From: an uncultured Eubacteriales bacterium
GTDB taxonomy: Bacteria; Bacillota; Clostridia; Christensenellales; Aristaeellaceae
Assembly (NCBI GenBank): GCA_902761755.1
Contig: CACWLP010000011.1
Coordinates: 1-46,914, forward strand
Direction: 5' to 3'
Length of the DNA: 46,914 bases
Each line of letters opens with the position of its first letter. Positions within the stretch are counted from its first letter, which is position 1. A program made the position numbers and the translations under genes. Of this stretch, positions 5,604 to 36,780 are shown in pieces. The notes under the pieces are model-generated. The model saw only the letters and a program-made list of their open reading frames with translations, searched no databases and was not told the DNA's origin.

Positions 5604-5670
5604 ATTGTAGACTTTTTATTGATTCAGACGCTTGCTGTGTTCCGATAATAATTCACACAAATCCGACATC
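5604..5670 (-). promoter_or_regulatory. Candidate YesN operator pair plus -10 (isomerase/transketolase operon)
   Basis: Read on the minus strand, a distal half-site ATGTCGGATTTG (CGG at 5665-5663) and a proximal half-site TTATCGGAACAC (CGG at 5644-5642) lie exactly 21 bp apart. A -10 hexamer TACAAT (5609-5604) begins 32 bp after the proximal CGG, and no -35 resembling TTGACA is present. Transcription would start about 28 nt before the isomerase ATG. The same layout occurs at four other promoters in the window. Confidence 0.65.
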
Positions 5671-5691
5671 GTTTATGGAATCAATCCGCAC

Positions 5692-5730
5692 AAAAAAAGA
5701 ACGCCCTTCGACAGTGAAGCGCATTCTTTT
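5692..5730 (-). terminator. Intrinsic terminator ending the long GH operon
   Basis: On the minus strand a 15-bp stem (arms 5730-5716 and 5709-5695, one mismatch and one G-U pair) with a 6-nt loop is followed by an unbroken T tract. It lies 50 nt after the stop of the GH78 gene and before the next operator, so it separates the two minus-strand operons. Confidence 0.85.
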
Positions 5731-5780
5731 CCTTGCTGTTATTTCCCGATAGCAAACGACCCTTTATACATGATGTCAGG

Positions 5781-8309
5781 TCAGGCAATTAATGAATGGA
5801 CACCGTTTGATACTGCTTCCATCCGGCCGTCGGGCCACTGGATTTCTGCACGAATCGGCGTTTGCACACGTAAATGCAGCTTACTCCCTTCATATCGCCA
5901 TTCGCTTTCGATCAGCCCGACTGGAGAATTCCACCGAGCCTTTGCATACCCAAGGGATGGATGTGGGTATGGGCGGATGGTTAGCTTTCCATCCTTCAGC
6001 CGGATACCGCAAACACTGTCCAGGAGCCATCCGCAGATCGCACCGTATGCGTAATGATTCATGGAATCGTGCACGGTACCATCGGAACGGATACCGTCCC
6101 AGGTCTCCCAAATGGAGGTCGCCCCTTTTTTGATGGCGTACAGCCAACTGGGGTTGGTATCCTGCAGCAGCAGCCGATAGGCCGTATCTGTGTGTCCATG
6201 CTCCGTCAGCACACGGCAGAGATCCGGCGTGGACAGAAAACCTGTATTCAGGTGATCCCCGTTTTGCTTCACCAGGGAGTTCAATTGACCCGCAGCGACT
6301 TGAGCCTCCACCGGATCCAATAAACCGAAAGCAATGGGCCGTACGTATTCGCATTGACGGTTAGAATCTATTCTCCCGTGATCCGTACAGCAATAACGGT
6401 ATGCTTTTCGAGCCATCTCAGCAATCTTCCGATACTTCTCTGAGTCTCCGGGTTTTCCCAGAATTGCCGCGATCTGTCCCATCAAGTCAGCCGAATGAAA
6501 ATAGTAGGCGGTTGCCACCTCCGGTGCGCCTTCCAGGCCATTCTTGCGCAGGGCATCCATACTGTTCACGTCAGGCTCCAGCCATTCGCCAAAGTGAAAG
6601 CCCTGATCCTGCAAAGCTTCCTTCCAGGGATTACCTTGATTCGCTGGCCTTGTTTCCCGGGCACGCTGTTCCAGGAACGTCATCCATCTGCGCATCATAT
6701 CATAGTTCTCTTCCAAAATGGCCGTGTCGCCATAGGCTTGATACAGCGCCCAGGGCACCAGCACGCAGGCGTCCCCCCAGCCGGCAGAACCCTGCAGCAG
6801 CAAAGAAAACCGATCCCGGCCGTCATTGATCGGCGCAATATTCGCCATCAAGCCATCGTCAGCCTGGGCCAAACGGCATTCCGCCAGCCATTTTCGCAGG
6901 ATAGGCCAGCAATCCGTCAGCATCACGCCTGTCGGAGCAAAGGCCGCCGCGTCCCCAGTCCATCCTGTCCGCTCCCGGGTAGGACAGTCTGTGGGAATAT
7001 CACAGAAGTTTGATTTCATGCTCCAAAGACTATTGCGAAACAGCTGATTGACCGCTTCATTTCCACAAGTGAAAAAGGCTGTTTGCGGCATATGGGAATA
7101 CACGGCAATAGCCGTAAACTGAGCGCCGTCCAGATTCATATCCGTTTCAATCTTTGCGTACCGGAAACCGAAAAGGGTGAAATTGGGTTTATATCGATTG
7201 AAACCATCCTTGCAGATGTATTCGATTCTTTGCGGCACGCCGCCATTTTTGTTGCGTTCGCCGGGCGCGAAATTTTCCTGGGTAAAATTTCCGTTTTCAT
7301 CCAAGGTTTCTCCATGCCAGAGGACGATTTTCTGCCCGGCTTTTGCCTGTACGCACAATTCGGTATACCCAGCCAGGTTCTGTCCAAAATCGATCAGGGT
7401 ATCGCCGTTGGGCGCCGTGAATACTTTTCCTTGGAATCGCTCCTGTTCCCTCACGGACACACTGTCGGAACAAATCAAGTGATCATAGTCGAAAGCGGCT
7501 GGAATAACCTCATGCCAATTGGTAACCTGCTCCAGCCGGGCATCATAACGCTCTCCCAACTGCAAGTCGTTTTCCCGGATCGGTCCCGTCTGGCTGGCCT
7601 GCCAGCGTTCATCACTGATCAGCACCAGCTGATGATTGACCTCCATCTGGCACAGCAGCGCCAAGTCATCCCCATAGTAATGATTCAACCCGTCAATACC
7701 GTTATTGCCCCGGTACCAACCGTCCCCGAGAACGACCAGCATCTCATTTTCACCCTCGTGCAGCAGCGGCGATACATCGTATACCTGGTATTGCAGGCGC
7801 TGATGATAATCATCCGTCCCCGGAGCCAGCACATAATCGCCCACTCGATGTCCGTTTAGGTAAGCGACATACAGGCCGTGACAGGTAATATACAGTCTGG
7901 CGTGGTCCGTGCGTTCCAGAGAAAAAGTGCGTTTCAGATAACTGGCTGCCTGGCGCTTTCCTTTTTCAATGGTCAGCTCCGGACTGATCCATTTGGCCTT
8001 CCAGGATGAAGCGTGCAACAGTCCCATCTCGAACCAGGCATCATTCCATTCGCCGGGATGATCATTTTCATCCCACAGACGTATACGCCAGGTGAGGTGT
8101 TCTCGTGGGGCAGCATCATAACCGCAGCGGGCCAGCATGCGGCCCGTGGTTACCTTCCCGCTTTTCCAGACGGCTGTTTTCCCATTTCTAACGATGATTT
8201 CATAAGCGCTTTGCAGACCGCCATCGGTATGCCAGGAAAATACCGGGCGAACAGTTTGCAAGCCCAAAGGATTTTCCAGGTGTTCTGTCCGTAGGTGAAC
8301 GGCTTTCAA
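5781..8309 (-). CDS. Alpha-L-rhamnosidase, GH78 family
   Basis: This 842-residue protein has the GH78 order: an N-terminal FN3-like region (RPVFSWHTDGG), beta-sandwich domains (AYLNGHRVGDYVLAPG; TLIDFGQNLAGY; FTLFGFRYAKI), an (alpha/alpha)6 catalytic barrel and a C-terminal beta domain. The catalytic acid block DIPTDCPTRERTGWTGD (Glu about residue 446) and the likely base in SIWETWDGI (about 735) are both intact. I chose a TTG start at 8309 because GGGAGG sits 8 nt before it, whereas the GTG three codons upstream overlaps that ribosome site. There is no signal peptide, so it should act in the cytoplasm. It is the last gene of the nine-gene operon, just before a terminator. The family removes terminal alpha-L-rhamnose from plant glycosides or pectic oligosaccharides, which fits the nearby rhaB. 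Confidence 0.9.
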   Translation of the reverse strand: MKAVHLRTEHLENPLGLQTVRPVFSWHTDGGLQSAYEIIVRNGKTAVWKSGKVTTGRMLARCGYDAAPREHLTWRIRLWDENDHPGEWNDAWFEMGLLHASSWKAKWISPELTIEKGKRQAASYLKRTFSLERTDHARLYITCHGLYVAYLNGHRVGDYVLAPGTDDYHQRLQYQVYDVSPLLHEGENEMLVVLGDGWYRGNNGIDGLNHYYGDDLALLCQMEVNHQLVLISDERWQASQTGPIRENDLQLGERYDARLEQVTNWHEVIPAAFDYDHLICSDSVSVREQERFQGKVFTAPNGDTLIDFGQNLAGYTELCVQAKAGQKIVLWHGETLDENGNFTQENFAPGERNKNGGVPQRIEYICKDGFNRYKPNFTLFGFRYAKIETDMNLDGAQFTAIAVYSHMPQTAFFTCGNEAVNQLFRNSLWSMKSNFCDIPTDCPTRERTGWTGDAAAFAPTGVMLTDCWPILRKWLAECRLAQADDGLMANIAPINDGRDRFSLLLQGSAGWGDACVLVPWALYQAYGDTAILEENYDMMRRWMTFLEQRARETRPANQGNPWKEALQDQGFHFGEWLEPDVNSMDALRKNGLEGAPEVATAYYFHSADLMGQIAAILGKPGDSEKYRKIAEMARKAYRYCCTDHGRIDSNRQCEYVRPIAFGLLDPVEAQVAAGQLNSLVKQNGDHLNTGFLSTPDLCRVLTEHGHTDTAYRLLLQDTNPSWLYAIKKGATSIWETWDGIRSDGTVHDSMNHYAYGAICGWLLDSVCGIRLKDGKLTIRPYPHPSLGYAKARWNSPVGLIESEWRYEGSKLHLRVQTPIRAEIQWPDGRMEAVSNGVHSLIA

Positions 8310-8338
8310 GGTCTGCACCTCCCTGTATTTTCATGCGC

Positions 8339-11320
8339 TTATGATTGCTGCCTTTTCCAGAAGGCCACGGCATGCTCGATCCACCCTTCGGCGGCGGTTT
8401 CCGTGCCGGGGCCGACGCCGTGATCCACGCCGGGGAAGATTTCGCATTGGTACGGGACCCCGGCTTTTTTGAGCGCTTCCGCCATGCGGCGGGTGTTGTC
8501 GGGTTTAACGGTTTGATCCGCGTTGCCGCACCAGATGTAGGTGGGCGGATAGTCCGCATCTACCTGCTCATCCACGCTGGAAAAGGCTTCCATGGACACT
8601 TCAGCGGGATCACCCAGCAGCATGTTATGGGTCTGCTGTTCGGTGAAATCCGGGCGCATGCTGATGACAGGATAGGTCAGCACCAGCGCTTCCGGCCTGG
8701 GCAGATCGTAATGGATATAGCCCATATTGGCCGTGCCGAAGCTGGCTGCCAGATGGCCGCCAGCGGAGGAACCCCATACGGACCAGTGGGTGGTGTCCAG
8801 CAGGTATTCATCTGCTTTCGCGAAGATATCCCGCACAGCCTGGGCCAGATCGTCCTGGGGAGCGGGGAAGCGGGCCTGATCCTTCACCCGGTAATATACG
8901 ATGAAGGCGGATATGCCCATTTCATTGAGCTTTCTTGCGTAAGGCACGCCTTCAATAAAGCTGCACACCATGGTATACCCGCCGCCGGGGCAGATCACCG
9001 CGAAAGGATGGCGCTGCCCGTCCCGGAGCACAAAGCGGTCGTCCAGGGCGTAGGCGTTTTCTTTCCGGTGAGCGTCCTTTTCTGCCTGCTCCATGTCCAT
9101 GTCCTTGGGCGGCACATATTTGGGGATTTGATTCAACTGTTGATTGATGGCGATGATGCGCTCCTTGGGCATGTCCGGCGCACCCATGCGGATAAGCTGC
9201 AAAAGACTGAACTGCATCGTCGTGCGGCGGCGGTCCTCGGCGCTCATGCCCTCGCCGCTCTTGACCGTCTCGCGTCCGGTTTCCTGCTCCTTCTGCTTGG
9301 CTTTGGCGGCCCGGGCTGCCATCATTTCAGCCAGGAAGGGCTGCACCAGCGCTGCCGCGTCGTGGGACTGTGAGATGTCCTTCAGCAGGTCTTTGATGGA
9401 ATAGAAGCCCTCCGGCGTGTCGATGTCAAACCAGTTGAGCACCGTGCCTTGCTGGAAGCGATAGGCAGGATCAGGCTGGGAAACATGGGTAAACTGAGAC
9501 TGTTCGGTTAAATCGCCCGCGGACGCAATGACCGTATAGGTTCCCTCCGGCTGAGGCACGGTGAAATGGAAGAAATGATCCTCGGCCTGTTGTGTATACG
9601 CCGTTCCGCTGACCATCAGGGTCACTTCCGGCAGATTGCTGTATACCACAAATTCCGTGGTATCCCCTTCGCGGTTCACAAATTCCTTACTGCACAGATG
9701 CAGCGTGGGTTCATCCGTCAGCCAGGTCTGGTAGGCGTAGAAGACGTCCTTGCGGGTTTTTCGGTCAAAAGTCACCAGCCCCTTGTTGTTGCGCCCCTTG
9801 GTGCCGCCCTCCTCCCGTGCGTCGGCGGCGAAGTCAAACATGTTCCACACGTGGGTGGCCCACAGGTATTTCCGGGAATACAGCTGCTTGATCAGGCTTT
9901 CGTGGTAGATCATCTGGTATTCATTGCTGTAATCGCCGGGTTCAGGGTGGGAGGAATGCCACAGGCTGTTTTCGCAGCCATACTCCGATACGCCCACGGG
10001 CAGATCGGGATGCAGGGCATGGAAACGGTCGAACCAGGGGCCGTTGTCCTCCAGCCGTCCGCCGTACCAGCCGAAATAATGATTGTAGGAAAGCACGTCC
10101 GGCACATCCAAAAGGGGATGATCCACCGGGAGGGGCGATATGCAGGCCATGGTCGTGAGGCGGGTATCGTCCATTTCGTGGCACAGGACATTCAGCTTCT
10201 GATGGAAGGGAACCAGGGTTTCCTGGTCGCCGTGGGCCATGGTAATCTCATTGCTCAGACCCCACACCACGATGGCGGGATGGTTGTAATTCTGCTCAAT
10301 CAATTCCCGCATCTGGCTCAGAGCGTTTTCCCGGGCATTGTCCAGATGTTCGCTGATATAGGGGATTTCCGTCCAGACGACAATGCCCAGCCGGTCGCAC
10401 ATGTCATAGGTGTACTGATCGTGCTGGTAATGGGCCAGGCGCACAGTGGTGGCCCCCATATCGAACACATGGCGCAGGCTTTCTTCCATGTCCGCCTCTG
10501 AGATGGCGTTGCCCTTGCCCAGCCAGTCCTGGTGCATGGCCACGCCCCGCAGGGGGTAGCTTTCGCCGTTCAGGATAAACCCTTCATTGGGGTCGATACG
10601 GAAGGAACGGATACCGAAGGGAATGTCCAGGGAGTCGCACAGCGTCTCACCGTCGTACAGGCGGGCTTTCAACGTGTACAGATGGGGATTCTTCCGGCCC
10701 TGCCACAGCACGGGATGCTCAATATGGAAGGTAACTTCGTTCCCTGTCAGTGTTTCCCCATTCAATTCAAACACGGCCTGATCGCCGGTGGTGCATGCAG
10801 ATACAAGCACGTCGGCAGAGCCGTCATCCAGTACCTTCGGCGTCACCCGGATGCCGCAGCCGCCCAGGTTATCCATATCGAAATGGATTTTGGGCAATAC
10901 CACCAGACGCGCAGCCCGGTAAATACCGCCATAGAAGGTAAAATCGGCATTCTGCGGGTACACGGTATCGCAGGCGGCGTTGCTGACGGCGACGGTCAGG
11001 TGGTTTTCGCCTGCCTTCAGGCATTCCGAAATATTGAACCGGAACCGGCTGTAGCCCCCATGATGCTCCCCGATAAAATGATCGTTCAGCGTTATCTGAG
11101 CGGAGGCGGATACGCCGTCGAATTCCAGATAGACTTCTTCACTCGCTTTTCTGTCCGGCGCGGTAAACGTCTTTTCATACACGCATTCGCCCCGCCAGTA
11201 ATCCCCGCCGCCGTCCTGGCCGTCCAGGGCGTTCCAGGTATGGGGCAGCGTGACGGGCACGCGGTTTTCTCCAGGTTTTGTAAACAGCCAGCTTTCATTG
11301 AATGGGATCAGTTTACGCAC
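8339..11320 (-). CDS. GH2 glycosidase fused to an alpha/beta-hydrolase esterase
   Basis: This 993-residue protein has two enzyme modules. Residues 1-600 are GH2: a sugar-binding sandwich (VPVTLPHTWNALDGQDGGGD), an Ig-like domain and a TIM barrel with WGLSNEIT (acid/base Glu358) and PVGVSEYGCE (nucleophile Glu446). About residues 620-740 form a charged, mostly helical linker. Residues 760-993 form an alpha/beta-hydrolase of the acetyl-xylan-esterase-like (BD-FAE) type with VICPGGGYTM, GSSAGG (Ser852), CGNADQTV (Asp935) and GVDHG (His967). The start is GTG, placed 7 nt after AGGAGG. No signal peptide is visible. The enzyme could remove an ester group and a beta-linked galactosyl or related sugar from one substrate. 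Which sugar is unknown, because GH2 covers several specificities. Confidence 0.88.
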   Translation of the reverse strand: MRKLIPFNESWLFTKPGENRVPVTLPHTWNALDGQDGGGDYWRGECVYEKTFTAPDRKASEEVYLEFDGVSASAQITLNDHFIGEHHGGYSRFRFNISECLKAGENHLTVAVSNAACDTVYPQNADFTFYGGIYRAARLVVLPKIHFDMDNLGGCGIRVTPKVLDDGSADVLVSACTTGDQAVFELNGETLTGNEVTFHIEHPVLWQGRKNPHLYTLKARLYDGETLCDSLDIPFGIRSFRIDPNEGFILNGESYPLRGVAMHQDWLGKGNAISEADMEESLRHVFDMGATTVRLAHYQHDQYTYDMCDRLGIVVWTEIPYISEHLDNARENALSQMRELIEQNYNHPAIVVWGLSNEITMAHGDQETLVPFHQKLNVLCHEMDDTRLTTMACISPLPVDHPLLDVPDVLSYNHYFGWYGGRLEDNGPWFDRFHALHPDLPVGVSEYGCENSLWHSSHPEPGDYSNEYQMIYHESLIKQLYSRKYLWATHVWNMFDFAADAREEGGTKGRNNKGLVTFDRKTRKDVFYAYQTWLTDEPTLHLCSKEFVNREGDTTEFVVYSNLPEVTLMVSGTAYTQQAEDHFFHFTVPQPEGTYTVIASAGDLTEQSQFTHVSQPDPAYRFQQGTVLNWFDIDTPEGFYSIKDLLKDISQSHDAAALVQPFLAEMMAARAAKAKQKEQETGRETVKSGEGMSAEDRRRTTMQFSLLQLIRMGAPDMPKERIIAINQQLNQIPKYVPPKDMDMEQAEKDAHRKENAYALDDRFVLRDGQRHPFAVICPGGGYTMVCSFIEGVPYARKLNEMGISAFIVYYRVKDQARFPAPQDDLAQAVRDIFAKADEYLLDTTHWSVWGSSAGGHLAASFGTANMGYIHYDLPRPEALVLTYPVISMRPDFTEQQTHNMLLGDPAEVSMEAFSSVDEQVDADYPPTYIWCGNADQTVKPDNTRRMAEALKKAGVPYQCEIFPGVDHGVGPGTETAAEGWIEHAVAFWKRQQS

Positions 11321-11338
11321 AGGTTTTCCTCCTTTTCG

Positions 11339-12517
11339 TCAGGAAAAGTAGATCAGGCTGCGGATTTTGCCGATCAGCGTTCCGTCGCCGTCCTTTTGAT
11401 TTTGCATCAGCAGGATGGTCACGCCGGTGGCGGGATCGTTGATAAAAAAGGTGCTCAGCCAGCCGTCCCAGCCGTATTCTCCCATATTGGTGGGGAAAAA
11501 GGCAGCGGCCGGGTCCACCGTCACCCGCAGAAGATTGGCATAGCTGCGGCCTTCCAGCCCCATGGTTTGAGCAATGGTTTGCTGCGGTTTCCCCGTTTGC
11601 CGGCGACCGGTCATAAAGCGCACGGTGCTTTCATTCAGGATGCCCTGTCCGCCGTTCATCAGCATCCGCGCGAAGCGGGCGTAATCCTCAATGGTGGAGA
11701 AAAGCCCCGCCCCGCCGGAATGGAAGGCGTTTTCCCCGCCGTCGTTGCGGATTGCCAGATGATTGCCGGTATAGGGAACAAGGCTGCCGCATTCGTCCTT
11801 CTGATATACGGTCACCAGCCTTGCGCGTTTATCCTCCGGCACGAAAAAGCCGCTGTCCTCCATGCCCAAAGGCGATAAAACGCGCTTTTGCAAAAAGTCC
11901 GCAAAGGGCATATCGGCGGCCTTTTCGATCACCGCGCCCAGCACATCGGCGCAAACACTGTAATTCCAGCCTTCGCCGGGGTGGAACAAAAGCGGAATGG
12001 TTCCGATCCGCTCCGCAAATTCCTGGGTATCCATGGGGCGATCGGTGTCAAAGCGCCGCTCCGCCTCCTGAAAAACCATTTTCGTTTCCCGCTGGGGCAG
12101 GGTATCATCGCCGTCATAGGAAAGCCCCGCCGTCATATCCAACAGATCCCGCACCAGGCATTCCCTGGCCACAGGAACCATGCCCGTCGGTGTCTGCACC
12201 TGCTGATGCCGGAAGGAGCTGATATACCGGGATACCGGCTCATACAGATCCAGCTTTCCTTCCTGGATCAGCAGCATGGCGGCGCAGGAGGTTAAAGGCT
12301 TGGTCATGGAATAACAGCGGAAAATGCTGTTTCTTTGCATGGGCGTTTGCCGGGCAAGATCCGCGCAGCCGTTTTCCAAATAGCAGATTTCTCCCTGCCC
12401 GTCCATTACCAGCAAATTGCTTCCCGCGTTTGCCCCGGCTGCGGTGGCCCGATTCAGACAATCCAGCAGCGCGTCCCGACGCTGCTGGATGTTTTCACGC
12501 TTCAAAGGATACATCAT
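11339..12517 (-). CDS. Serine hydrolase, beta-lactamase/EstB fold
   Basis: The 392-residue protein carries the SxxK motif CYSMTKPLT (Ser70, Lys73) and a Tyr-Ser motif GEGWNYSVCADVLG (Tyr186), as in class C beta-lactamase-like esterases and D-alanyl-D-alanine-carboxypeptidase relatives. It has no signal peptide, which argues against antibiotic resistance or cell-wall work. In this operon it probably acts as a cytoplasmic esterase on an acylated glycoside, a role seen for EstB-type enzymes. The ATG overlaps the upstream GH2 stop (ATGA), so translation is coupled. The next gene starts 18 nt later. Exact substrate unknown. Confidence 0.85.
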   Translation of the reverse strand: MMYPLKRENIQQRRDALLDCLNRATAAGANAGSNLLVMDGQGEICYLENGCADLARQTPMQRNSIFRCYSMTKPLTSCAAMLLIQEGKLDLYEPVSRYISSFRHQQVQTPTGMVPVARECLVRDLLDMTAGLSYDGDDTLPQRETKMVFQEAERRFDTDRPMDTQEFAERIGTIPLLFHPGEGWNYSVCADVLGAVIEKAADMPFADFLQKRVLSPLGMEDSGFFVPEDKRARLVTVYQKDECGSLVPYTGNHLAIRNDGGENAFHSGGAGLFSTIEDYARFARMLMNGGQGILNESTVRFMTGRRQTGKPQQTIAQTMGLEGRSYANLLRVTVDPAAAFFPTNMGEYGWDGWLSTFFINDPATGVTILLMQNQKDGDGTLIGKIRSLIYFS

Positions 12518-15027: not shown

Positions 15028-15041
15028 TGTGCGTGTCCTCC

Positions 15042-17207: not shown

Positions 17208-17220
17208 TGGGGCAGCCTCC

Positions 17221-26767: not shown

Positions 26768-26781
26768 GGTGATCCCTCCTC

Positions 26782-27738
26782 TCAGAACAGGCTGCTTCCG
26801 GCGGCTTTGCGCGACAGCGCATTGGAGCCCACCAGAAGGATCGTGGAAACAAGAGACTGGAACAGACCGGAGGCGGCGGACAGCGAGTAATTGGTGTTGC
26901 CCTCGCCAAAGGCCTGGCGGTAGGTGTAGGTGTACACCGTGTCTGCCACGTTGTAGGTGTGGGGCTTGTAGAGCAGCAGGATGTTGTCATAGCCCGCGGC
27001 CAGGGCCGTTCCGACGTTGATGACAAACATCATCAGGATCATGGGCATGATGGAGGGCAGGGTGATTTTGAACAGCCGCTGCAGGCGCGTCGCGCCGTCG
27101 AGCGCGGCTGCTTCGTGCAGATCGCCGCTGACCTGGGAGATCGCCGCCACATACATGATGGAGCCCCAGCCGATGCTCTGCCAGATGCCCATCAGAAGGT
27201 AGATGATCCAGAATGCCGGCGGATGGTTGTTCGCAAACCAGTTCTGGTTCTCCGCGCCGAACACATTGGTCAGGAACAGCGTCAGCGGTCCGTCCTTGTC
27301 CAGGAACTGTTTGAACAGGGAGCAGACGATGACCGCGGCCACGAAGTTGGGCATGTAGGACATGGTCTGCGCGGTCCGCTTGAACTTCTTCGAGTTGATC
27401 AGGCTCAGTATCAGCGCGAAGATGATGGGGGCCACAAAGCCGATGGTGGCGCGCATCACGCCGATGATCACGGTGTTGCCGATCGCCTGCGGGAAATCCT
27501 CGCCGCTGAACAGATCGACGAAGTGCTTCAGGCCGACCCAGGGGCTGTGGAAGTAGCCGTCCACAACGTTGTAATCCTCGAAGGCCATCACAATGCCGAA
27601 CATCGGGAGATAGTGCAGGACGATCTCGTACACAATGATCGGCACAAACAGCAGGTAGACAACCCAGTCGCGCCTGAGCTCCGTCTTCCAGCTCCGGCGG
27701 CTGGAGGCGGCCAGATCATACGCATTTTTCTTTGCCAT
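26782..27738 (-). CDS. Carbohydrate ABC transporter permease, LplB type
   Basis: The 318-residue protein has six membrane segments (WVVYLLFVPIIVYEIVLHYL; TVIIGVMRATIGFVAPIIFA and others) and an EAA-type loop DLHEAAALDGATRLQRLFKI that contacts the ATPase. The N-terminal sequence (WKTELRRDWVVYLLFVPIIV) is typical of the LplB/YteP group found with polysaccharide operons in Bacillota. It sits between the binding protein (19 nt upstream) and the second permease (14 nt downstream), with AGGAGG before the ATG. With its partner it forms the membrane channel of the importer. Confidence 0.93.
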   Translation of the reverse strand: MAKKNAYDLAASSRRSWKTELRRDWVVYLLFVPIIVYEIVLHYLPMFGIVMAFEDYNVVDGYFHSPWVGLKHFVDLFSGEDFPQAIGNTVIIGVMRATIGFVAPIIFALILSLINSKKFKRTAQTMSYMPNFVAAVIVCSLFKQFLDKDGPLTLFLTNVFGAENQNWFANNHPPAFWIIYLLMGIWQSIGWGSIMYVAAISQVSGDLHEAAALDGATRLQRLFKITLPSIMPMILMMFVINVGTALAAGYDNILLLYKPHTYNVADTVYTYTYRQAFGEGNTNYSLSAASGLFQSLVSTILLVGSNALSRKAAGSSLF

Positions 27739-27757
27739 GTTTCACACCTCCTGTCGC

Positions 27758-29542: not shown

Positions 29543-29600
29543 GGGTTTGATCTCCTTTCTCCAATGGACTGAACGGAGGGATAACTCCTTGATGCTATTC

Positions 29601-29666
29601 ATGATAGCGAATCACAGAACAAAGCGCTTTATGATTTCCGACAAAAAATACGGCATTTCCGACACG
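29601..29666 (-). promoter_or_regulatory. Candidate YesN operator pair plus -10 (ABC importer operon)
   Basis: Minus strand: distal GTGTCGGAAATG (CGG 29661-29659) and proximal TTGTCGGAAATC (CGG 29640-29638), 21 bp apart. The two half-sites are nearly identical over ten bases. TATCAT (29606-29601) begins exactly 31 bp later. The distal site is also part of a small palindrome (CCGAC-N2-GTCGG). The operator lies just after the stop of the upstream operon. I see only a weak split hairpin there, so some read-through is possible. Confidence 0.68.
29619..29632. promoter_or_regulatory. Possible CcpA cre site
   Basis: AAAGCGCTTT (29621-29630) is a perfect 10-bp palindrome matching the core of the Bacillota cre consensus, and the 14-bp window matches at 11 positions. 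It lies between the proximal YesN half-site and the -10, where a bound repressor would block the promoter. Carbon catabolite repression of the importer would be sensible. The outer cre bases do not match well. Confidence 0.4.
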
Positions 29667-29680: not shown

Positions 29681-31930
29681 TTATTCCGCATACCGGAGCT
29701 CTCCCGAAAAGGAAATCCGTTCGTCTGACGGCGTGATCAGCAAGCCATGCGCATTTTCAGGCAGTCTGATCCGATACTGCCATGTGACGTCATCCATCCG
29801 CCTGTACGCAAATTGGACATTTCCCAGAGGCGTTGCAGCCGAACCGGACATGTCCGGAAGATCCAGCAAATGCGGCCGGATTACGATGACACCGTTTTCC
29901 TGTCGGATGCCGGCCAGCGTATGTATGAACGTATATAGCGGAAGCGCGCTCCATGCGTGGCACTCGCTGCGGGGATGGTGCGGCTCTTCCGGGCAGGTGG
30001 TGCTGCCGCGGTCTCTCAGGCTGATCCAGGCCTCCAAATCCCTGCGCAGCTGCTCCTCCATTCCTGCCTTTTCTAATGCGCAGAACCATTCGTAGGAAGT
30101 GGCAAAGGAGCAGGGAGGACAGCTTACTGCGGATTTCAGCGCACGTATACTTTCTCTTTCGTCCAGCAGACCGTTCAGCACCGACCAGGCCTGCGCGTGG
30201 CGGGTGAACTGCGGACATTCCGGGCCTTCCCGTATCATTCCCTTTTCAGGGTCAAAGCATAGATCCTTGATTCTTTGCAGAATATTTGCCCGACGGTTCC
30301 GGTATTCCAGTGCTGTGCCAGGACGGCCTGTGGTTTCGTAAAGCTTCGCACCACATTCCAGGGCAAACGCGTACATCAGATTGATGATGGTGCTGGGACC
30401 TTCAAAGTAAGCCGGAGGCACGCCGCCAGTTTCTTTCCAGTCTTCCTGCCAGTCTATGAAAGCCCAGGGTTCAATGGCTCCCACCAGCCCAGATTTGTCC
30501 CGCTTGCTATCGAAGCAATCCAGAATTCGGTCGACATCGGGACGGTATTTTCTGGCCAGCTCCAGATCACCCGTATGCTCCACATACTCCCAGAGAGCAA
30601 ACACATAATGCAGAGAGAACGTGGAAATTACTTGCAGATAAGCTGTCGGCGTCTTCCCTGGCAGCAATCCGTTCGGCAGCATTCCGCAGTGGAAGTCGAG
30701 CAGTGCTTTCTTTGCCAGACGCGTATCGCTGCTCACCGCATAGGTGAAAAGCATTTGTAGCCGCGTATCCATGATGAATTGCAATTGTTCATAGTACGGG
30801 CAGTCCATGTAGGTTTCCAGCATGCAGTTTCGCAGGGTGCGCAGGCTGATATCCCAAAGTGAATTGACCCATGAAGCAGAAGATGCGATCGAGGCTTCCA
30901 CTGTCAAAGGATACCCCGTTTTTCGATAGGTCGGCGGCTCCGACAACTGTCCGCCTTGGATCACGATATAACGGAAGGTACGCACCCAGAAGGGCTCATA
31001 GCGTAGGGGGCTGCCGTTCAGCACGATATGATCGGCCCGGCCCGAAACACTGCCGTTCAGATCGTCGATGGGCTGCCCATCCATGCCGTCCCCGAAACGT
31101 TCCAAATAGGTGATCGTGATTTCTGTTTCCGCTTCACCGTCAAACAGGAACCGCGGATAACCATTCACATGGGCTCCGGCATCCAGCACAATATCGTTTT
31201 CCCTGCAAATGATCCGCGTAAAGTCCGTTTCCCTTTCCTCCAGCAGCGGGATTTCCCGGGGGATCACGTGCACCCGGGGGATCAGTCCCACGCTCTGGAA
31301 GGTAGCTGAGAAGGTCACTGGTCCATAGGGCATCGCGGGCCGCCAGGCCGATGCGTCAAAATCGACGGTTTTCCAGTCGCTGGGTGTCAGCCGAAAATCG
31401 ATGTTTTCCTCCACTGCGCCAAGATAGACGGAACATTGCGTGGACTTCAGATAAAAGCTGCTGTCCAGCCACACCCGCCAGTCAGCCTGGCCTGTGGTAA
31501 CAGAACCAATGATTTCCCCATCGCCATCGAATATGCTTCCCTCCATTGCCAGCGAATGGCAATTGCCAGCGCCAACCACGCCGTAGATGGCCGCCCTTTC
31601 ATCGGTTTGATCCCGGGCGACATCGGGATCGTTAAAGAGCACCTGTACGGCAAACACGTTTTTTCCCGCCCGCAGATAGGGTGTCAGCTCCACCGTTTCA
31701 TAATACTGCCGATTCAGATCGCCTTTGCAGGGGCCTGACTGCACGGGCTGTTCATTGACCCACAGCCGATAACGGGATACCGCCGTGAGGCAGACCGTCA
31801 GATGGGCTTTCTCCGGCAGCGCCTGCTCGCAGCGGAAGTAAGCGAAGCGTCCGCCCAGATCACCGTGATAGATTTGCTTCTGTTTCAGCTCGTCCGGCGG
31901 AATCCTGATCCATTGCGCAGATTCCCACAT
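29681..31930 (-). CDS. Divergent GH78-like (alpha-L-rhamnosidase-related) protein
   Basis: This 749-residue protein has GH78-type architecture: an N-terminal sandwich (YRLWVNEQPVQSGPCKGD), a further beta domain (IVLDAGAHVNGYPRF, EPFWVRTFRYIVI) and an (alpha/alpha)6 barrel. The barrel motif is MDCPYYEQLQFIMDTR. Aligned with the standard DCPTRERTGWTGD, the Glu and the last Asp are kept but the Arg, Gly-Trp and Gly are changed. The second catalytic region near RSECHAWSALPLY lacks the usual IWE, reading TTCPEEP. It is therefore a distinct branch that may act on a modified deoxysugar or another uronic/deoxy residue. No signal peptide. It is the last gene of the yesL operon, and a 55-nt gap with a hairpin precedes it. 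Confidence 0.78.
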   Translation of the reverse strand: MWESAQWIRIPPDELKQKQIYHGDLGGRFAYFRCEQALPEKAHLTVCLTAVSRYRLWVNEQPVQSGPCKGDLNRQYYETVELTPYLRAGKNVFAVQVLFNDPDVARDQTDERAAIYGVVGAGNCHSLAMEGSIFDGDGEIIGSVTTGQADWRVWLDSSFYLKSTQCSVYLGAVEENIDFRLTPSDWKTVDFDASAWRPAMPYGPVTFSATFQSVGLIPRVHVIPREIPLLEERETDFTRIICRENDIVLDAGAHVNGYPRFLFDGEAETEITITYLERFGDGMDGQPIDDLNGSVSGRADHIVLNGSPLRYEPFWVRTFRYIVIQGGQLSEPPTYRKTGYPLTVEASIASSASWVNSLWDISLRTLRNCMLETYMDCPYYEQLQFIMDTRLQMLFTYAVSSDTRLAKKALLDFHCGMLPNGLLPGKTPTAYLQVISTFSLHYVFALWEYVEHTGDLELARKYRPDVDRILDCFDSKRDKSGLVGAIEPWAFIDWQEDWKETGGVPPAYFEGPSTIINLMYAFALECGAKLYETTGRPGTALEYRNRRANILQRIKDLCFDPEKGMIREGPECPQFTRHAQAWSVLNGLLDERESIRALKSAVSCPPCSFATSYEWFCALEKAGMEEQLRRDLEAWISLRDRGSTTCPEEPHHPRSECHAWSALPLYTFIHTLAGIRQENGVIVIRPHLLDLPDMSGSAATPLGNVQFAYRRMDDVTWQYRIRLPENAHGLLITPSDERISFSGELRYAE

Positions 31931-31949
31931 TCTGTTACCTCTTTGAAAA

Positions 31950-31976
31950 TGAAAGACTGGAAAAACCAGCCTTTCA
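31950..31976 (-). other. Intercistronic hairpin (possible attenuator)
   Basis: Minus strand: an 11-bp stem (arms 31976-31966 and 31960-31950, one G-U pair) with a TTTTT loop is followed by only a short ATTTTC. It lies between the esterase stop and the GH78-like ribosome site. It may partly terminate transcription or mark an RNA-processing point. Confidence 0.45.
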
Positions 31977-31984
31977 CAAAATCC

Positions 31985-34105
31985 TTATTCTACGATGATT
32001 CGCGCCCGATCCAGGTTCAGCACCTGGGTAAATGGATCTGCGGCATCGCCATTGCGCTGGGTAGCGATGCGTACGGTGGCAAAGTATGTGCCGGGCTTAT
32101 CAAAGGATCCGACGGTTTCCGCATGGGCGGTGTGCACCTGGCCCCGGACGCCCTTTTCAAAGGTCAGTGCACCATCCCACATTTCTTTTCCCAGCATCAG
32201 TCTGGCCGCGCCGTTGGTTTCGGTTTCCTTAGCGGCAAGCTGCTTTTCCTGCTGGGCAAACAGGATCTCCGTCACGTCGCCCGCGTTTTCGGGCACCTCA
32301 ACATCCACCGTGAAGCGCACACACTCGCCTGCTTTTACATGGGTGCACTTTTCGCCGTTGGCCTTCAGTGTGGGGATCGCCTGAATGCCGAACCGTTTGC
32401 TCACATCGGGCTCCGTATGAATCTGCCCGTCTTCGCCCAGGGTATAGGCGGTACGATTCAGGGGTTCAATACCCTTCTCCACCCAGTTGCTCAGGTCAAT
32501 CAGCGCCTGCCGCAGAGCACCCACATAGTTGACCACCATATAGTTGCCGATGGCGGCCACGTCGCCGTGCATGCAGCGTTCCATAAAGTAGGTGCGGTGA
32601 TCCGCGTCGCTGCCCTTGGCCTCAATGATCTTGTTCCGCCACCAATCGGCGCACCATGGGCACGTGCTTTCGTCCATCAGCGCTTGGATGTTGATGACCT
32701 TACCTTGAATTTCGCCATCCTGCCGCACGCCCACACCGGTAAAGGGCACCGGGAAAGGCTTCCGCTGGGGTGTTTTGGGTGTGCCGTCTGCATTGCGGAA
32801 CTGATCCCAGGCATGGAAGGACAGATCCTCCGGCACCTGGTGGCGATAATAGCTCTGGGCTGCGATATAATCGGAATTATCCAGCAGGATTTCATCCCCA
32901 GGCCGCACTTTCCCCAGTGTTTCTCCCACGTCGCTGGTGCCGTAGGCGGAACCGATGGTGACGATGCCACCGTCGCGGTCGGAATAACGCATCATTTTGC
33001 CCATGAGCAGGTTCGCACCCGCAGCCTCGCCACTTTCAAAAATCATCGAAAGACCTTCCAGGTACAGATGATCCCCCTGGGGCAGAGCCTCCAGTTCGAG
33101 ATAGGCGCCATTGCCATCGGCCAGCTGCTTTTTCCAGGCGTCATCCACGCCGTTCAGGCCGTTTTCCGCACTGCGGGCTTCCGCCTTATCAGCCAGATGC
33201 ACCGAATGAACTTTGGTTTTGAAGTAAATGCGATCCTTGGAGGAAGAGCTTTCCGGGTCAGCCCCCGCATACCCGGGCTTGGTCCAGAAATCGGTAAAGT
33301 AGTCGGGATCCATTCTTTTGACACCGGGCATCAGCACCGGCAGGGAGCCGGGATCGATGACGCCCTTGGCCTCCAGATACCAGGCCAGCGGAGGGAAGCC
33401 CATCCTTGTCAGCTCCCGCAGCATATCCGCCTCATCCCGATTCAGTTCTTTATAGGGGTCGCCGCTGCCGCCCGCGTCCAGGGCGTCCAGAATTTTGGGG
33501 AAAGCATCTCGCAGCACCCGCTGTCCCTGCACGTGCATGGTGATGGTGTTGGGCAGGCTCACGGGAGAGCCGATGACAAAGGGCGCAGCCCCGTCCCAGG
33601 CGGAGGTATTCTCGATGCAGGCCATGGATTTGTAGCCGCCGCCGCTGCCGCCGTACACATAGCCATAGGGCCGTTGGGCCGTTTCATAGATTTCCATGGC
33701 CTTTTCCCGGGAATATTCCGCCGCCGCTGCGGAGGATTGCCAGGTCAGCTTGTCATCCCGGTTGCCGCCGAACTGGGAGTGGGAGCCCATGTTGGTTTCC
33801 ACATAATATGCTCCGCATTTGAGGGCAAAGCCGATCCTGTCCTCGGTGCCGGTATGCCCCAGAGAGGCTACCTCTTCATCGGGACCGGGGAAGGGAGACA
33901 GATACTGCTGAAAACGGTTTTCATAACGCTCCGCCGGTGGGAAGCAGAAGGCGAACTTCACATCCGTTCCCTCAAAATAGCCGTGCATGAACCGGAAGGG
34001 AATGGTTTCGCCGCCGGGCAGATAGCGTTCTCTCCATTCATCCTGATCGATAACCGGATGCTGGAAACGCGGATCCTGCTTGGGATTATAGATCGTTTTT
34101 TTCAA
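31985..34105 (-). CDS. Large tannase-like alpha/beta-hydrolase (esterase) of unknown substrate
   Basis: The 706-residue protein contains YVYGGSGGGYKSMACIE, a nucleophile elbow (G-x-S-G-G) at about residue 150-165. Much later comes MERCMHGDVAAIGNY followed by ALIDLSNWVEKGIEPLNRTA. A histidine beside a cysteine, then a Leu-x-x-Trp-Val-Glu-x-Gly stretch, resembles the C-terminal core of tannase/feruloyl-esterase family proteins. The last 130 or so residues form a beta-rich domain (RFTVDVEVPENAGDVTEILF). The start is TTG at 34105 with GGAAGG 10-14 nt upstream, inside the last codons of the GH43 gene (20-nt overlap). There is no signal peptide. I infer a cytoplasmic esterase removing an aromatic or acetyl group. 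The family name is not certain. Confidence 0.65.
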   Translation of the reverse strand: MKKTIYNPKQDPRFQHPVIDQDEWRERYLPGGETIPFRFMHGYFEGTDVKFAFCFPPAERYENRFQQYLSPFPGPDEEVASLGHTGTEDRIGFALKCGAYYVETNMGSHSQFGGNRDDKLTWQSSAAAAEYSREKAMEIYETAQRPYGYVYGGSGGGYKSMACIENTSAWDGAAPFVIGSPVSLPNTITMHVQGQRVLRDAFPKILDALDAGGSGDPYKELNRDEADMLRELTRMGFPPLAWYLEAKGVIDPGSLPVLMPGVKRMDPDYFTDFWTKPGYAGADPESSSSKDRIYFKTKVHSVHLADKAEARSAENGLNGVDDAWKKQLADGNGAYLELEALPQGDHLYLEGLSMIFESGEAAGANLLMGKMMRYSDRDGGIVTIGSAYGTSDVGETLGKVRPGDEILLDNSDYIAAQSYYRHQVPEDLSFHAWDQFRNADGTPKTPQRKPFPVPFTGVGVRQDGEIQGKVINIQALMDESTCPWCADWWRNKIIEAKGSDADHRTYFMERCMHGDVAAIGNYMVVNYVGALRQALIDLSNWVEKGIEPLNRTAYTLGEDGQIHTEPDVSKRFGIQAIPTLKANGEKCTHVKAGECVRFTVDVEVPENAGDVTEILFAQQEKQLAAKETETNGAARLMLGKEMWDGALTFEKGVRGQVHTAHAETVGSFDKPGTYFATVRIATQRNGDAADPFTQVLNLDRARIIVE

Positions 34106-35888
34106 GGGAAATGCACCTTCCTTCCGTTATTCCGCTTTCATTGAAAGCATCGACCCGAACAAAATACTGACAGCCTTTTACCAGTGCGCCAATGCGTTTT
34201 TCACCGGCAGAGAACACCATATAGCTGTGATACAGCTTATCGGGGGCAGAGCCAAAGAGAATGTTATAGCCAAGCGTGTTTTCCTGTTCGCGGATGGTTA
34301 CAGCCATATCCAATTCACCGGTTTGCGCGGCGCTAAAAGACGGAATCTCTGGTTTTGCTCCGTAACCTCTGCCAAACACGCGAAGACCAGATACGCAGGG
34401 GCTTTGGGCATATGGCACGGCGATATTTGTCAGGCGGATCAGCCGGGCTTTGAAGCCGCTCTCCCGAAGAATCAGATCGTGGGAGAGGTCGGTCCGCGCG
34501 TCAGACTTGTCCTCGATGACAAACCAGCTTGCCCCGTCCGCGCTGCCCTCCAGCCGCCATTGAGTTTGCAGGTCCCTTTCTTCAATATGGCGAGCCTGGC
34601 CTTCCATCATCGGAACAGGGCATGGAATGCTGATCCCGTCATCTGCGAAATTGACCTGAATGGCATGAACATCATATACCGCTCCAAGATCAACCTGCAG
34701 CCATTCTGTACGGCTGTTTGTTGCTGCCCGCCACCAGGTACGCGCGTCTTCCTCAGTCGCTCTTACCGGTTCATGCCCTTCCGCGCAGGAGGAGGCAAAA
34801 GCCGCTTTCCCCACGCTGAGAAGCATCCAGGCCGGGTCCCGCCAGGGATCGCCATCCGTGGCCATAGGCCAGTCGCCGTAACGCTGGTTGCAGAAGAGCT
34901 CCCCATCTGTGTCGAAGCCCGCAGGCCACAGGCCGACACGGCGCTCAAAATTATGGTTTACACTGATGCGCATCGTTGACGTATGCCACCATTGCCCTTG
35001 CCGGTCCTGCATGGTGGAGCCGTGGCCCGCGCCGGGCAGAAAACCACCGGGATGGTAGGAGTAGGGATTGTTTTTCGCCAGGGTGAACGGGCCCAAGGGA
35101 CTGTCGCTGACATAAACCCCATCGGCATAGATGTTATATTCCGTGCCCGGGCATGCGTATTGCAGATAGTACCTGCCTTCATGCTTTGTCATCCACGAGC
35201 CCTCGATGAAAGGCGCATTGGAGAACATGCCTCGGATCATCGCCTTTCGGTCATCCGGAATCTGATCCTCTCGCATGCCTCTGGCAGCCAGGAATGCCCG
35301 CATCTTCGCCTCCGCCTCCTCCTGCAGGAGGGGTTGGAGGCTGTGATCTTCCCCTAAGCGTTCAAACCCGATTTCAAAAGGATGCCCCTCGATCAGAACC
35401 TTTCTTTCTCCCTTGGGAAGCATCGTTTCCACGTCCAATTCCACGCCCCAGATCGGTGTTGCGTTGGAGCAGCCCCAGTAAAAGTAGACCCTGCCGTCGT
35501 CATCGATAAACAGATTGGGATCCCAGAACGGAAAGGTTCCCGGTATTCTCTCATAAGGCCCGTTCAGAATATCCCGGGTGCGCCAGCGATCGCAGCTTTC
35601 ATCCCGGCGGGAAGCACAGAAGTATACCCACTCGCCTATCACGCGCACGTCAGGGGCATAATCATACAGCGGAAGTTCTTGGGGAAGCCGGTGGTTTTGC
35701 CAATGCGCCAGGTCATCCGACACCCACACGCCCAGGGTCATGGACGCAAAGATGTAATAGCGGCCCTGAAAGCAGATCATGGAGGGGTCTGCCGCTTCAC
35801 GACAGATTTTCATATTTCCGCCCTGGCGTTGATCCAGATTGAACTGATACCGATAGTTCACATTCACAGGATTGCAAAAGTACCGCAT
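34086..35888 (-). CDS. GH43-family glycosidase with F5/8-type (CBM32-like) and FN3-like domains
   Basis: The 600-residue protein starts at 35888 (AGGAGG upstream). The GH43 propeller shows the three catalytic acids in EAADPSMICF (Asp34), PFWDPNLFIDDDGRVYFYWG (Asp123) and PFIEGSWMTKHEGRYYLQY (Glu229). After about residue 370 an F5/8-type C domain follows (TNSRTEWLQVDLGAVYDVHA ... KARLIRLTNIAVP), then a short FN3-like unit (CQYFVRVDAFNESGITEG). GH43 members with this layout release arabinose, xylose or galactose side groups. No signal peptide. A longer frame to 35996 would run into the yesL gene and lacks a ribosome site. The stop overlaps the next gene by 20 nt. Confidence 0.87.
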   Translation of the reverse strand: MRYFCNPVNVNYRYQFNLDQRQGGNMKICREAADPSMICFQGRYYIFASMTLGVWVSDDLAHWQNHRLPQELPLYDYAPDVRVIGEWVYFCASRRDESCDRWRTRDILNGPYERIPGTFPFWDPNLFIDDDGRVYFYWGCSNATPIWGVELDVETMLPKGERKVLIEGHPFEIGFERLGEDHSLQPLLQEEAEAKMRAFLAARGMREDQIPDDRKAMIRGMFSNAPFIEGSWMTKHEGRYYLQYACPGTEYNIYADGVYVSDSPLGPFTLAKNNPYSYHPGGFLPGAGHGSTMQDRQGQWWHTSTMRISVNHNFERRVGLWPAGFDTDGELFCNQRYGDWPMATDGDPWRDPAWMLLSVGKAAFASSCAEGHEPVRATEEDARTWWRAATNSRTEWLQVDLGAVYDVHAIQVNFADDGISIPCPVPMMEGQARHIEERDLQTQWRLEGSADGASWFVIEDKSDARTDLSHDLILRESGFKARLIRLTNIAVPYAQSPCVSGLRVFGRGYGAKPEIPSFSAAQTGELDMAVTIREQENTLGYNILFGSAPDKLYHSYMVFSAGEKRIGALVKGCQYFVRVDAFNESGITEGRCISLEKNDL

Positions 35889-35907
35889 TATTTTTCCTCC
35901 TACGCTG

Positions 35908-36597
35908 TCAGTTAAGCTGGAGAGGCTCTGCCGGGTCTGCCTGTCGGTTCGGCTCAAACTCCTGGCATTCAGTTTCGTTTTCCTTGCTTCCGTCAAATTT
36001 GCGGAAACGTTTCACACAGGTTCTGGACATATACCAGACCACAAAGGCAGGCACAAAGAAGGTGATGATGGGCATCACCTGCGGGAACAGCGCCGCCAGG
36101 ATGAAGCCGCCCACGGCAACTGCCAGGGCCAGCAGCGTCTGGGGGAAGCGGGACAGCATATGAATGACGGCGTTATGGATGATTTGCCGGTTGGTCAGTT
36201 GAAACCGGGCCAGCGTGGGAAATGTCCAGAGCATCAGCGCCGCCGTCAGCAATGCCAGCACAAAGATTACTGCGCACAACAGGCGGATCAGCGGCGTTCC
36301 TTCCATCTGCATCAGGATATACCAGTCCGCGGCCAGGAATCCAACGACCAGCATAAACAGCAGCGTCAGCATAGTACCCTGGCGGAAATTATCCTTGAAG
36401 GCCTGCCAGAAGGGTCGGAAGATGGTCGGCGCTTCTTTTCGCTCAATCCGCATGCCCACAGTCATCACAGCGGCTGCGGCAGCGCCGGCGGTAAAACCTG
36501 GAATGGAGAAAAGCAGGAATACCAACCCGAGCTTGATATAATCAAGCAGTGAATAGATAAACTGTGAAAACCTGCTGTCCGGATTAAAAAGCTGCAT
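35908..36597 (-). CDS. yesL: YesL-family membrane protein (DUF624)
   Basis: This 229-residue protein with four to five hydrophobic segments (LGLVFLLFSIPGFTAGAAAA; GTMLTLLFMLVVGFLAAD; LLCAVIFVLALLTAALMLW; ALAVAVGGFILAALF) has the DUF624/YesL layout, including an IYSLLDYIKLG opening. YesL proteins are found beside yesMN and LplABC transporters in many Bacillota polysaccharide clusters, including the B. subtilis rhamnogalacturonan cluster. Their biochemical role is not known. It is the first gene of its operon, preceded by AAAAGGAGG and by the shared operator. The C-terminal tail is hydrophilic and charged. Confidence 0.9.
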   Translation of the reverse strand: MQLFNPDSRFSQFIYSLLDYIKLGLVFLLFSIPGFTAGAAAAAVMTVGMRIERKEAPTIFRPFWQAFKDNFRQGTMLTLLFMLVVGFLAADWYILMQMEGTPLIRLLCAVIFVLALLTAALMLWTFPTLARFQLTNRQIIHNAVIHMLSRFPQTLLALAVAVGGFILAALFPQVMPIITFFVPAFVVWYMSRTCVKRFRKFDGSKENETECQEFEPNRQADPAEPLQLN

Positions 36598-36629
36598 TTC
36601 TCTTTCCTCCTTTTCGGGTTACTGTTTGT

Positions 36630-36696
36630 ATTGTATCAATCGCTTCCGGCGATTTCTTCCCGATTTCCGACTCGAAATGACAGAAAACCGACATTG
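36630..36696 (-). promoter_or_regulatory. Candidate YesN operator pair plus -10 (yesL operon)
   Basis: Minus strand: distal AATGTCGGTTTT (CGG 36690-36688) and proximal GAGTCGGAAATC (CGG 36669-36667) are 21 bp apart. TACAAT (36635-36630) begins exactly 31 bp after the proximal CGG. No -35 consensus. It lies back to back with the operator pair of the plus-strand operon. Confidence 0.66.
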
Positions 36697-36713
36697 TGCA
36701 TCTGGATGCCGGC

Positions 36714-36780
36714 GCATGTCGGATTTGTGAAAAAAAGCATCGGAAAACAAAAAGACAGGAAAAGACTGATCATTTAAAAT
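36714..36780 (+). promoter_or_regulatory. Candidate YesN operator pair plus -10 (plus-strand MATE/GH operon)
   Basis: Plus strand: distal GCATGTCGGATTTG (CGG 36720-36722) and proximal AGCATCGGAAAACA (CGG 36741-36743) are 21 bp apart. TAAAAT (36775-36780) begins exactly 31 bp after the proximal CGG. The orientation follows the gene it would serve, opposite to the neighbouring pair, so the 236-bp gap is a divergent double promoter. The position of the -10 also rules out an ATG at 36786 as the start of the MATE gene. Confidence 0.68.

Follow-up and report, generated by a model that had tools for sequence, protein, structure and literature searches.

Five promoters in a glycan gene cluster of an uncultured gut Eubacteriales bacterium share an element composed of two direct TCGG half-sites exactly 21 bp apart. 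Judging from their sequence and conservation, these five tandem sites very probably serve as operators by which the YesM/YesN two-component system, encoded in the same cluster, controls a single regulon directed at plant sugars that contain rhamnose and perhaps apiose. The cluster is found on contig CACWLP010000011.1 (GenBank assembly GCA_902761755.1), which was analyzed at its full length of 46,914 nucleotides and is called the window below. The contig belongs to a genome bin of 2.2 Mb, which is 73% complete. A first-pass annotation of this DNA had proposed the five site pairs, a fixed register between them and the -10 hexamer, the lack of a -35 element and YesN as the protein that binds them.

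All five pairs were found on the strand and at the position where the annotation had placed them. Operator 1 (TGTCGG-N17-TCGG, 5642–5668, minus strand) lies upstream of an isomerase/transketolase/kinase operon (916–5569), operator 2 (23523–23549, minus) between yesN and a nine-gene operon (5781–23411), and operator 3 (29638–29664, minus) upstream of the genes for a solute-binding protein and two permeases (25856–29602). Operators 4 and 5 form a divergent pair, in which operator 4 (36667–36693, minus) stands upstream of the DUF624/GH43/31985/GH78 genes (29681–36597; GH, glycoside hydrolase) and operator 5 (36717–36743, plus) upstream of the MATE/GH3/GH1/GH43/GDSL/SDR genes (36834–44943). The distal half-site reads TGTCGG in all five promoters, and the proximal half-sites of operators 1 to 5 (TATCGG, CATCGG, TGTCGG, AGTCGG and CATCGG) match the stated [ATGC][AG]TCGG. 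The -10 hexamer of promoter 1 (TACAAT, 5604–5609, minus) starts 32 bases past the proximal CGG, and those of the remaining promoters start 31 bases past it: CATAAT (23486–23491), TATCAT (29601–29606) and TACAAT (36630–36635) on the minus strand and TAAAAT (36775–36780) on the plus strand. As had been claimed, the orientation of the sites follows that of the served gene, the divergent pair included.

The absence of a -35 element turned out to be correct only in part. It holds for the TTGACA sequence, which is matched at 2, 2, 1, 3 and 4 of 6 positions at 5.6, 23.5, 29.7, 36.69 and 36.72 kb, respectively. It does not hold for the 36.72-kb promoter, the core of which reads AAGACA-17-TAAAAT (36752–36780, plus) with an AAAG[AC] element at the -35 position. 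This element is conserved at the -35 position across orthologues and is a feature that the first-pass annotation did not contain. The first TTG of the MATE reading frame (36786) starts 6 bases past the end of the same -10 hexamer, and the likely start of the protein is the ATG at 36834, which has GGGAGG upstream.

Within the window, the 21-bp spacing is clearly favored. When measured from CGG to CGG, TGTCGG and TCGG are 21 bp apart in six pairs, namely in the five promoters and at an intragenic position, 4582, and there is at most one pair at each other spacing from 8 to 44 bp. Similarly, there are four TCGGA pairs at 21 bp and 0 or 1 at other spacings. A form of the motif with one mismatch allowed occurs 13 times, compared to 3.21 times in shuffled sequences (standard deviation 1.61, largest value 7). 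A weight matrix built from 48 sites, of which 43 come from close relatives (group A, described below) and five are the window promoters themselves, finds only these five promoters at a score of at least 8, and none in the reversed window. A search of the window for further sites with this matrix gave a single additional match with a score of at least 4 (6.6, at position 1703), which is on the other strand within the kinase gene.

The putative ligand of the five operators is encoded by yesN (23556–24326, minus), the 256-residue product of which is a response regulator with a receiver and an AraC-type helix-turn-helix (HTH) domain. Both parts are present: the Pfam domains are Response_reg, HTH_AraC (in two stretches) and HTH_18. 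Among three orthologues, D7/D8, D54 and K104 are invariant, and T82 is kept in two and replaced by S in the third. We take these to be the phosphorylation residues of the receiver. The adjacent gene yesM (24323–25738, minus) encodes a histidine kinase with His_kinase and HATPase_c domains, and the receiver residues together with this kinase suggest that YesN is controlled by phosphorylation. The likelier start of yesM is the ATG at 25738 rather than the GTG at 25786, which falls within the promoter. The yesMN promoter itself (TATACA-17-TATAAT, 25778–25806, minus) has a -35 element, lacks the tandem site and gives zero matrix matches, in full agreement with the earlier description. In a genome of the same genus (G004), yesN is split into two frames with a break near residue 194 (L087:831–1588), which points to gene decay or to a mistake in the assembly.

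The sites accompany YesN in related genomes. Among 28 genomes of the same genus, three (G004, G024 and G027) encode a YesN with 76–79% identity, and sites are present in four out of four genomes with a close YesN when our own is counted; the YesN relative of G026 is only 40% identical. A scan of GTDB species genomes yielded 58 loci with a YesN relative, which we divided into three groups. Group A comprises 21 loci with a YesN that is 73–99% identical, from metagenome-assembled genomes labelled Clostridia or Clostridiales, many of them from the ruminant gut. Group B consists of 10 loci (51–57% identity), seven of which are labelled Lachnospiraceae, Blautia or Roseburia, and group C of 27 distant loci. 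Another 15 YesN loci were additional to these and were outside the TCGGA pair count. Group A contains near-duplicates (L101/L102 and L108/L109/L110), and the loci L113, L120 and L126 are apparently the contigs of G024, G004 and G027, respectively, with which they share their lengths and sites. The count of TCGGA pairs at 21 bp in group A, which covers all loci, is 50, with 0–2 pairs at other spacings from 8 to 45 bp except for six at 37 bp. The corresponding numbers are 7 at 21 bp and 0–2 elsewhere in group B, and 2 at 21 bp and 8 at 16 bp in group C.

A scan that is blind to the motif gave the same picture. It counts identical 7-mers with at least three G/C letters in non-ORF DNA (ORF, open reading frame) with a -10 hexamer downstream, at spacings of 14–33 bp and with overlapping words counted repeatedly. 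In group A, there were 64 such pairs at 21 bp versus one each at 14 and 28 bp, and in group B, 12 at 21 bp versus one at 18 bp. Group C gave zero at 21 bp and five at 20 bp, and the 15 other YesN loci gave zero at all spacings. The weight matrix found 56 matches in group A and none in its reversed sequence, four matches scoring at least 12 in group B, and none scoring at least 4 in group C or in the 15 other loci. Where YesN is more distantly related, the loci thus lack a peak at 21 bp, and we do not claim the use of this spacing for all YesN proteins.

The position of the sites is conserved as well. In all 21 group A loci, a site is found 10–180 bp past yesN, at the promoter of the gene for protein 22347. 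The motif TCGGAT-N15-TCGGAT has 18 matches in eight of the 10 group B genomes versus one in the reversed sequences, and sites at cluster promoters are present in nine of these genomes if we count those of L123 and one with a 22-bp spacing. In the latter case (G107), the pair in front of the 22347 gene (L209:4742, minus) is a tandem TCGGATTT, and the -10 hexamer is still at 31 bp. Three exact matches in G107, one of which was looked at, are not known cluster promoters. Group B sites precede orthologues of the solute-binding protein, 22347 and 31985. Promoters of orthologues with 50–60% protein identity retain the sites. In two group B genomes, G100 and G103 (L178:12200–13900 and L177:4700–6500), a reading frame that resembles a lipoprotein comes after the cluster yesM. 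It may encode a solute-binding sensor like those of three-component systems.

In order to describe the anatomy of the operator, we collected 120 distinct TCGG pairs from the window, groups A and B and six further loci, and filtered them by A+T content and the presence of at least one TCGGA, a filter that is blind to the -10 hexamer. In 68 of the 71 distinct sites that passed, the -10 hexamer lies 31 or 32 bp away, compared to 0–7 sites for other offsets; among the 49 that failed, the best -10-like hexamer is at 31 or 32 bp in three. The three passing sites without such a hexamer (L115:4914, L117:4903 and L081:5685) were taken as non-operators and excluded from the anatomy and from the counts of downstream genes. 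The window contributes 5 of the 68 sites, group A 43, group B 7 and further contigs of the genus 13, with identical sequences counted once. Their consensus is TGTCGGATTT-N12-[GA]TCGGATTT-N3-AAAG[AC]-N19-TATAAT. The information content per position is 1.6 bits in the distal half-site and 1.5 in the proximal one, and it drops to 0.7 in the stretch that separates the two. It is 1.2 bits for the AAAGA element and 1.0 for the -10 hexamer, and only about 0.2 for the flanks and for the spacer from AAAGA to the -10 hexamer. AAAG is present in 39 sites and at least its AG in 61, and a -35 hexamer with at least four of six matches is found in only seven. The gene downstream encodes the solute-binding protein in 20 cases, protein 22347 in 18, MATE in 12, DUF624 in 8, protein 31985 in 2 and the isomerase and GH2 in one each; one site runs into a contig end, and in five the first downstream open frame has no match to the window proteins.

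Several observations weigh against this reading, and we consider them together here and in the next paragraph. Counted without its context, TGTCGG-N17-TCGG is hardly more frequent in the bin than its reversed control (15 versus 14 matches), and TGTCGG-N17-TCGGA occurs at least once in 73 of 100 relatives with similar reversed counts. The genome-wide scan that the first-pass annotation had suggested, run on the bin and the 28 genomes of the genus, gave raw counts no better than the control. The high-scoring sites in the same scan are all within this cluster: of 74 exact 28-mers (TGTCGG-N17-TCGGA) in the 29 genomes, 21 score at least 27.3 and 53 at most 16.8, a split that is partly circular given that the matrix was trained on the window and group A, including contigs of G004, G024 and G027. 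The 21 high scorers come from eight genomes, namely the four with a close YesN and G006, G015, G019 and G021, and include the divergent MATE/DUF624 pair. In addition, AAAG[AC] is not conserved in every group B site. Since the bare motif is not enriched genome-wide, the case rests on the promoter context. The G+C content around the motif is 41–46% at the five promoters and 55–72% at the other ten matches of the bin, which sit within open frames of 404–843 codons from stop to stop. The open-frame test alone does not discriminate, as the 5642 site is also located in a frame of 473 codons, antisense to the isomerase gene. The lack of enrichment would speak for the spacing as a mere coincidence, or as a relic of the common ancestry of duplicated promoters without a function, and so would the letters that some promoters share between the half-sites (0.7 bits on average, e.g. 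TCGGATTTGTG). However, the half-sites and the -10 hexamer are conserved in the 68 sites, unlike the flanks and the nucleotides that link AAAGA to the -10 hexamer, and the half-sites are kept in promoters of orthologues that have diverged to 50–60% protein identity. We therefore regard such an origin as having a negligible probability.

The other observations concern the link between the sites and YesN. Groups A and B were gathered through YesN, and the co-occurrence of the two is thus partly ascertained. Five genomes (G021, G406, G006, G019 and G015) carry sites, but no close YesN was detected in them. For G015, this can be explained by its relative L119, which is 99.2% identical to the G015 contig over 8.1 kb and runs on into yesMN. 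In G006 and G019, the contig stops before the expected position of yesMN. The three sites of G021 (88% complete, 8% contamination) are unexplained; a transposase-like frame is found at the end of the contig that carries them, near the contig break (L085:3744–4946). The divergent MATE/DUF624 site pair of G406, on a 4.5-kb contig of a genome without a YesN at an E-value of 1e-55, is similarly unexplained, and this contig may be transferred or foreign DNA. Conversely, G106 has a YesN (54% identity), and no site was found in a whole-genome scan. In an independent sample, the 299 genomes of the family of G101, TCGGATTT-N13-TCGGAT is present in 24 (30 matches versus 4 reversed) and a YesN with an E-value of at most 1e-55 in eight (39–56% identity). 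The strict motif and YesN are shared by only three of the 299, and among these, G101's match is the only one at a known cluster promoter, while G107 has the 22-bp variant instead; the matched place was inspected in G101, G107 (one strict match) and G406. Five further loci with YesN relatives of 38–46% identity (L204–L208) have no TCGG pair beside yesN, and the pair in L207 is about 7.5 kb away. One genome (G138:C80:1063–1173) contains five matches to TCGGATTT-N13-TCGGAT that recur at intervals of exactly 21 bp and may be part of a gene with internal repeats instead of operators.

A rival reading is that the operators are bound by another AraC-type regulator encoded elsewhere, such as a one-component sensor of rhamnose or of apiose, with yesMN as a mere neighbor or in control of something else. 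The sites of G021 and G406 without a detected YesN speak for it, as do G100, G103, G108 and G109, in which the sites are on a different contig from the detected yesN. Other AraC-type proteins exist, as 19 places in the bin match YesN or parts thereof. However, no second AraC gene was found among the 35 window ORFs scanned, and the motif tracks YesN in two groups of loci and is absent around distant YesN proteins. Furthermore, the recognition helices and the half-sites have changed jointly in one genome, which is described below. Such a regulator is therefore improbable. The proposal of YesN as the ligand is supported by sites that follow YesN relatives over a large evolutionary distance and stand before orthologous genes, although binding as such is deduced from the sequence.

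The genome in question is G160. The recognition helices of groups A and B are nearly identical, being mostly S[AP]DHLTR in HTH1 and NYSYFTEQFK in HTH2, where the likeness of HTH2 is not independent, as the locus scan partly selected for YFTEQFK. The helices of distant YesN proteins differ from these. In the YesN of G160 (49% identity), SADHLTR of HTH1 is replaced by SPRHLNR and TEQFKK of HTH2 by TKLFKK. In its operator (L203:3871–3897), both half-sites have changed from TCGGATTT to [TC]CCGATTT, and the 21-bp spacing and the register with the -10 hexamer are unchanged. On the strand of the gene, it is the same base that is altered in each of the two half-sites. This site, which reads TGTCCGATTTGTGTTAGTTTTTGCCCGATTT, is the only tandem word with a -10 hexamer in register on the 10-kb contig, and it precedes the solute-binding protein in an operon of yesM, solute-binding protein, GH106-like, yesN and permease genes. 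Its orientation was argued from the -10 hexamer and the shared flanking letters, as the opposite strand gives a TCGG pair at 21 bp. In the 4.3-Mb genome of G160, YCCGAT-N15-YCCGAT is found five times versus none for the reversed motif. From this one example, G160, it is conceivable but less likely than not that DNA recognition by YesN-type response regulators obeys a code that can be read. If such a code were true and general, the operators and regulons of uncharacterized YesMN systems of gut Firmicutes would be readable from the sequence, and the search rule would be tandem words about 21 bp apart, 31–32 bp before a -10 hexamer.

The geometry of the sites also resembles that of LytTR proteins, which bind direct repeats with a spacing of about 21 bp ahead of the -35 element, and a LytTR-type response regulator could in principle read these repeats. 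Against this, the half-site differs from the LytTR consensus, none of the window proteins scanned is a LytTR protein, and the single one in the 73%-complete bin is on another contig (C1) and not linked to the sites. A LytTR regulator is consequently very improbable.

Direct repeats two helical turns apart at the -35 position of promoters with a weak -35 element are compatible with an AraC-type protein that acts as a class II activator. With YesN as the regulator, we infer the following mechanism. YesM would sense a plant glycan signal and phosphorylate YesN. The half-sites TGTCGGATTT and [GA]TCGGATTT, which at a distance of two turns (21 bp) share one face of the helix, would then each be occupied by a YesN DNA-binding domain. 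The proximal half-site would reach the -35 position, where AAAG[AC] stands in for TTGACA, so that RNA polymerase would be recruited efficiently only with YesN bound. The regulon would be the cluster itself, with the ABC importer, the MATE exporter, the glycoside hydrolases and an operon for the breakdown of a monosaccharide, perhaps D-apiose. The yesMN genes would be transcribed from their own ordinary promoter with no autoregulation through the tandem sites.

At araI1-I2, E. coli AraC binds two direct half-sites that are likewise 21 bp apart, with the proximal one next to the -35 element. AraC senses arabinose directly, however, whereas YesN is a response regulator. The yesLMNOPQ region of Bacillus subtilis encodes DUF624/YesL, YesMN, a solute-binding protein, two permeases and rhamnogalacturonan-type enzymes. 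These gene types recur here, but the enzyme set is different and includes an apiosidase-like protein, a split transketolase operon and MATE. Three reports describe further related systems. Carbohydrate loci of Caldicellulosiruptor bescii (AviRS, MosSQ, BxgRS and others) have a two-component regulator with an AraC-type HTH beside an ABC sugar importer, as here, in another organism and with other substrates and regulators (PMC8579813). According to the same source, the predicted sites of three of five such regulators of Caldicellulosiruptor are repeats in tandem, separated by a large spacer and located ahead of promoter elements, and activation was inferred. In Ruminiclostridium cellulolyticum, the YesMN-like pairs XydS/XydR and CuaDSR activate polysaccharide and importer genes (PMC3572039, PMC10384115). 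XydR and CuaR are 532 and 538 residues long, compared to 256 residues of the YesN studied here, and CuaR has been described as having a long middle region. The XydR report states that the effector domain of XydR binds DNA upstream of its targets in an electrophoretic mobility shift assay, that xydRS is not regulated by XydR, that common words are present upstream of two targets with no clear consensus, and that one Ruminiclostridium genome has 12 AraC-type pairs (PMC3572039).

The kind of system is already known: YesMN-like pairs that activate genes of importers and carbohydrate-active enzymes (PMC3572039, PMC10384115), with tandem sites (PMC8579813). New here are the motif with its register and its natural variants and the proposed regulon, together with the conservation seen across two groups. 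A literature search that covered few subscription journals found no published description of this motif, and, judged by title, no YesN operator was among the matches listed for the letters TGTCGGAT in combination with 'response regulator'. Publications listed on apiose pathways and on Geobacillus AraT contained nothing directly useful by their entries, and a regulon reconstruction was not found. YesMN-like systems adjoin many glycan-uptake genes (PMC3572039), yet we found no clear consensus operator described for one of them. With YesN as the ligand, the half-site, spacing, register, regulon and natural variants of one YesMN system would be decoded. This regulon would tie together a possible apiose metabolism, rhamnosidases, the importer and the MATE exporter, which suggests that its members serve one common substrate.

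Judged from the gene order, each of the five promoters stands at the start of an operon, and these operons together comprise all recognized genes between 916 and 44943 except yesMN. Operon 1 (minus strand) encodes an FGGY kinase, a split transketolase and a sugar isomerase-like protein. Operon 2 (minus) begins with the secreted protein 22347, GH43, an apiosidase-like protein, GH3 and GH78 and continues with GH2, a beta-lactamase-fold protein, a GH2-esterase and another GH78. Operon 3 (minus) encodes the solute-binding protein and the two permeases of the ABC sugar importer, operon 4 (minus) DUF624 (YesL-like), GH43, protein 31985 and GH78, and operon 5 (plus) the MATE exporter, GH3, GH1, GH43, a GDSL esterase and an SDR protein. 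GH78 rhamnosidase domains are found in three window proteins. The combination of kinase, split transketolase and isomerase resembles the transketolase-type D-apiose pathway. However, as the sole NCBIfam match of the isomerase is sulfoquinovose isomerase, far under the cut-off, and the best model for the kinase is glycerol kinase, the assignment of operon 1 to D-apiose degradation is only a guess.

Protein 22347 (22347–23411) has a signal-like N-terminus and an all-beta model (pLDDT 84.8). A fold search of the PDB with this model gave TM-scores of at most 0.22 among the 50 matches listed, and no function could be derived from it. Protein 31985 (31985–34105, 706 residues) is conserved with the regulon and had no match in sequence searches of Pfam, NCBIfam and the PDB. 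Its AlphaFold model is poor (pLDDT 56.5) and yields no function, and its sequence contains a GGSGGGYKS stretch that resembles the elbow of serine hydrolases. The operon of isomerase-like, split transketolase and FGGY kinase genes, accompanied by an apiosidase-like gene, is found again in distant genomes in the vicinity of YesMN or the sites (window 916–5569 and 19638–21176; L181:9727–15699; L207:1483–7789), and it may point to apiose-containing glycans or apiosyl/rhamnosyl phenolics as the substrate. Also of note is a second FGGY-kinase-like frame (1–513, minus), which leaves the edge of the contig beyond operon 1.

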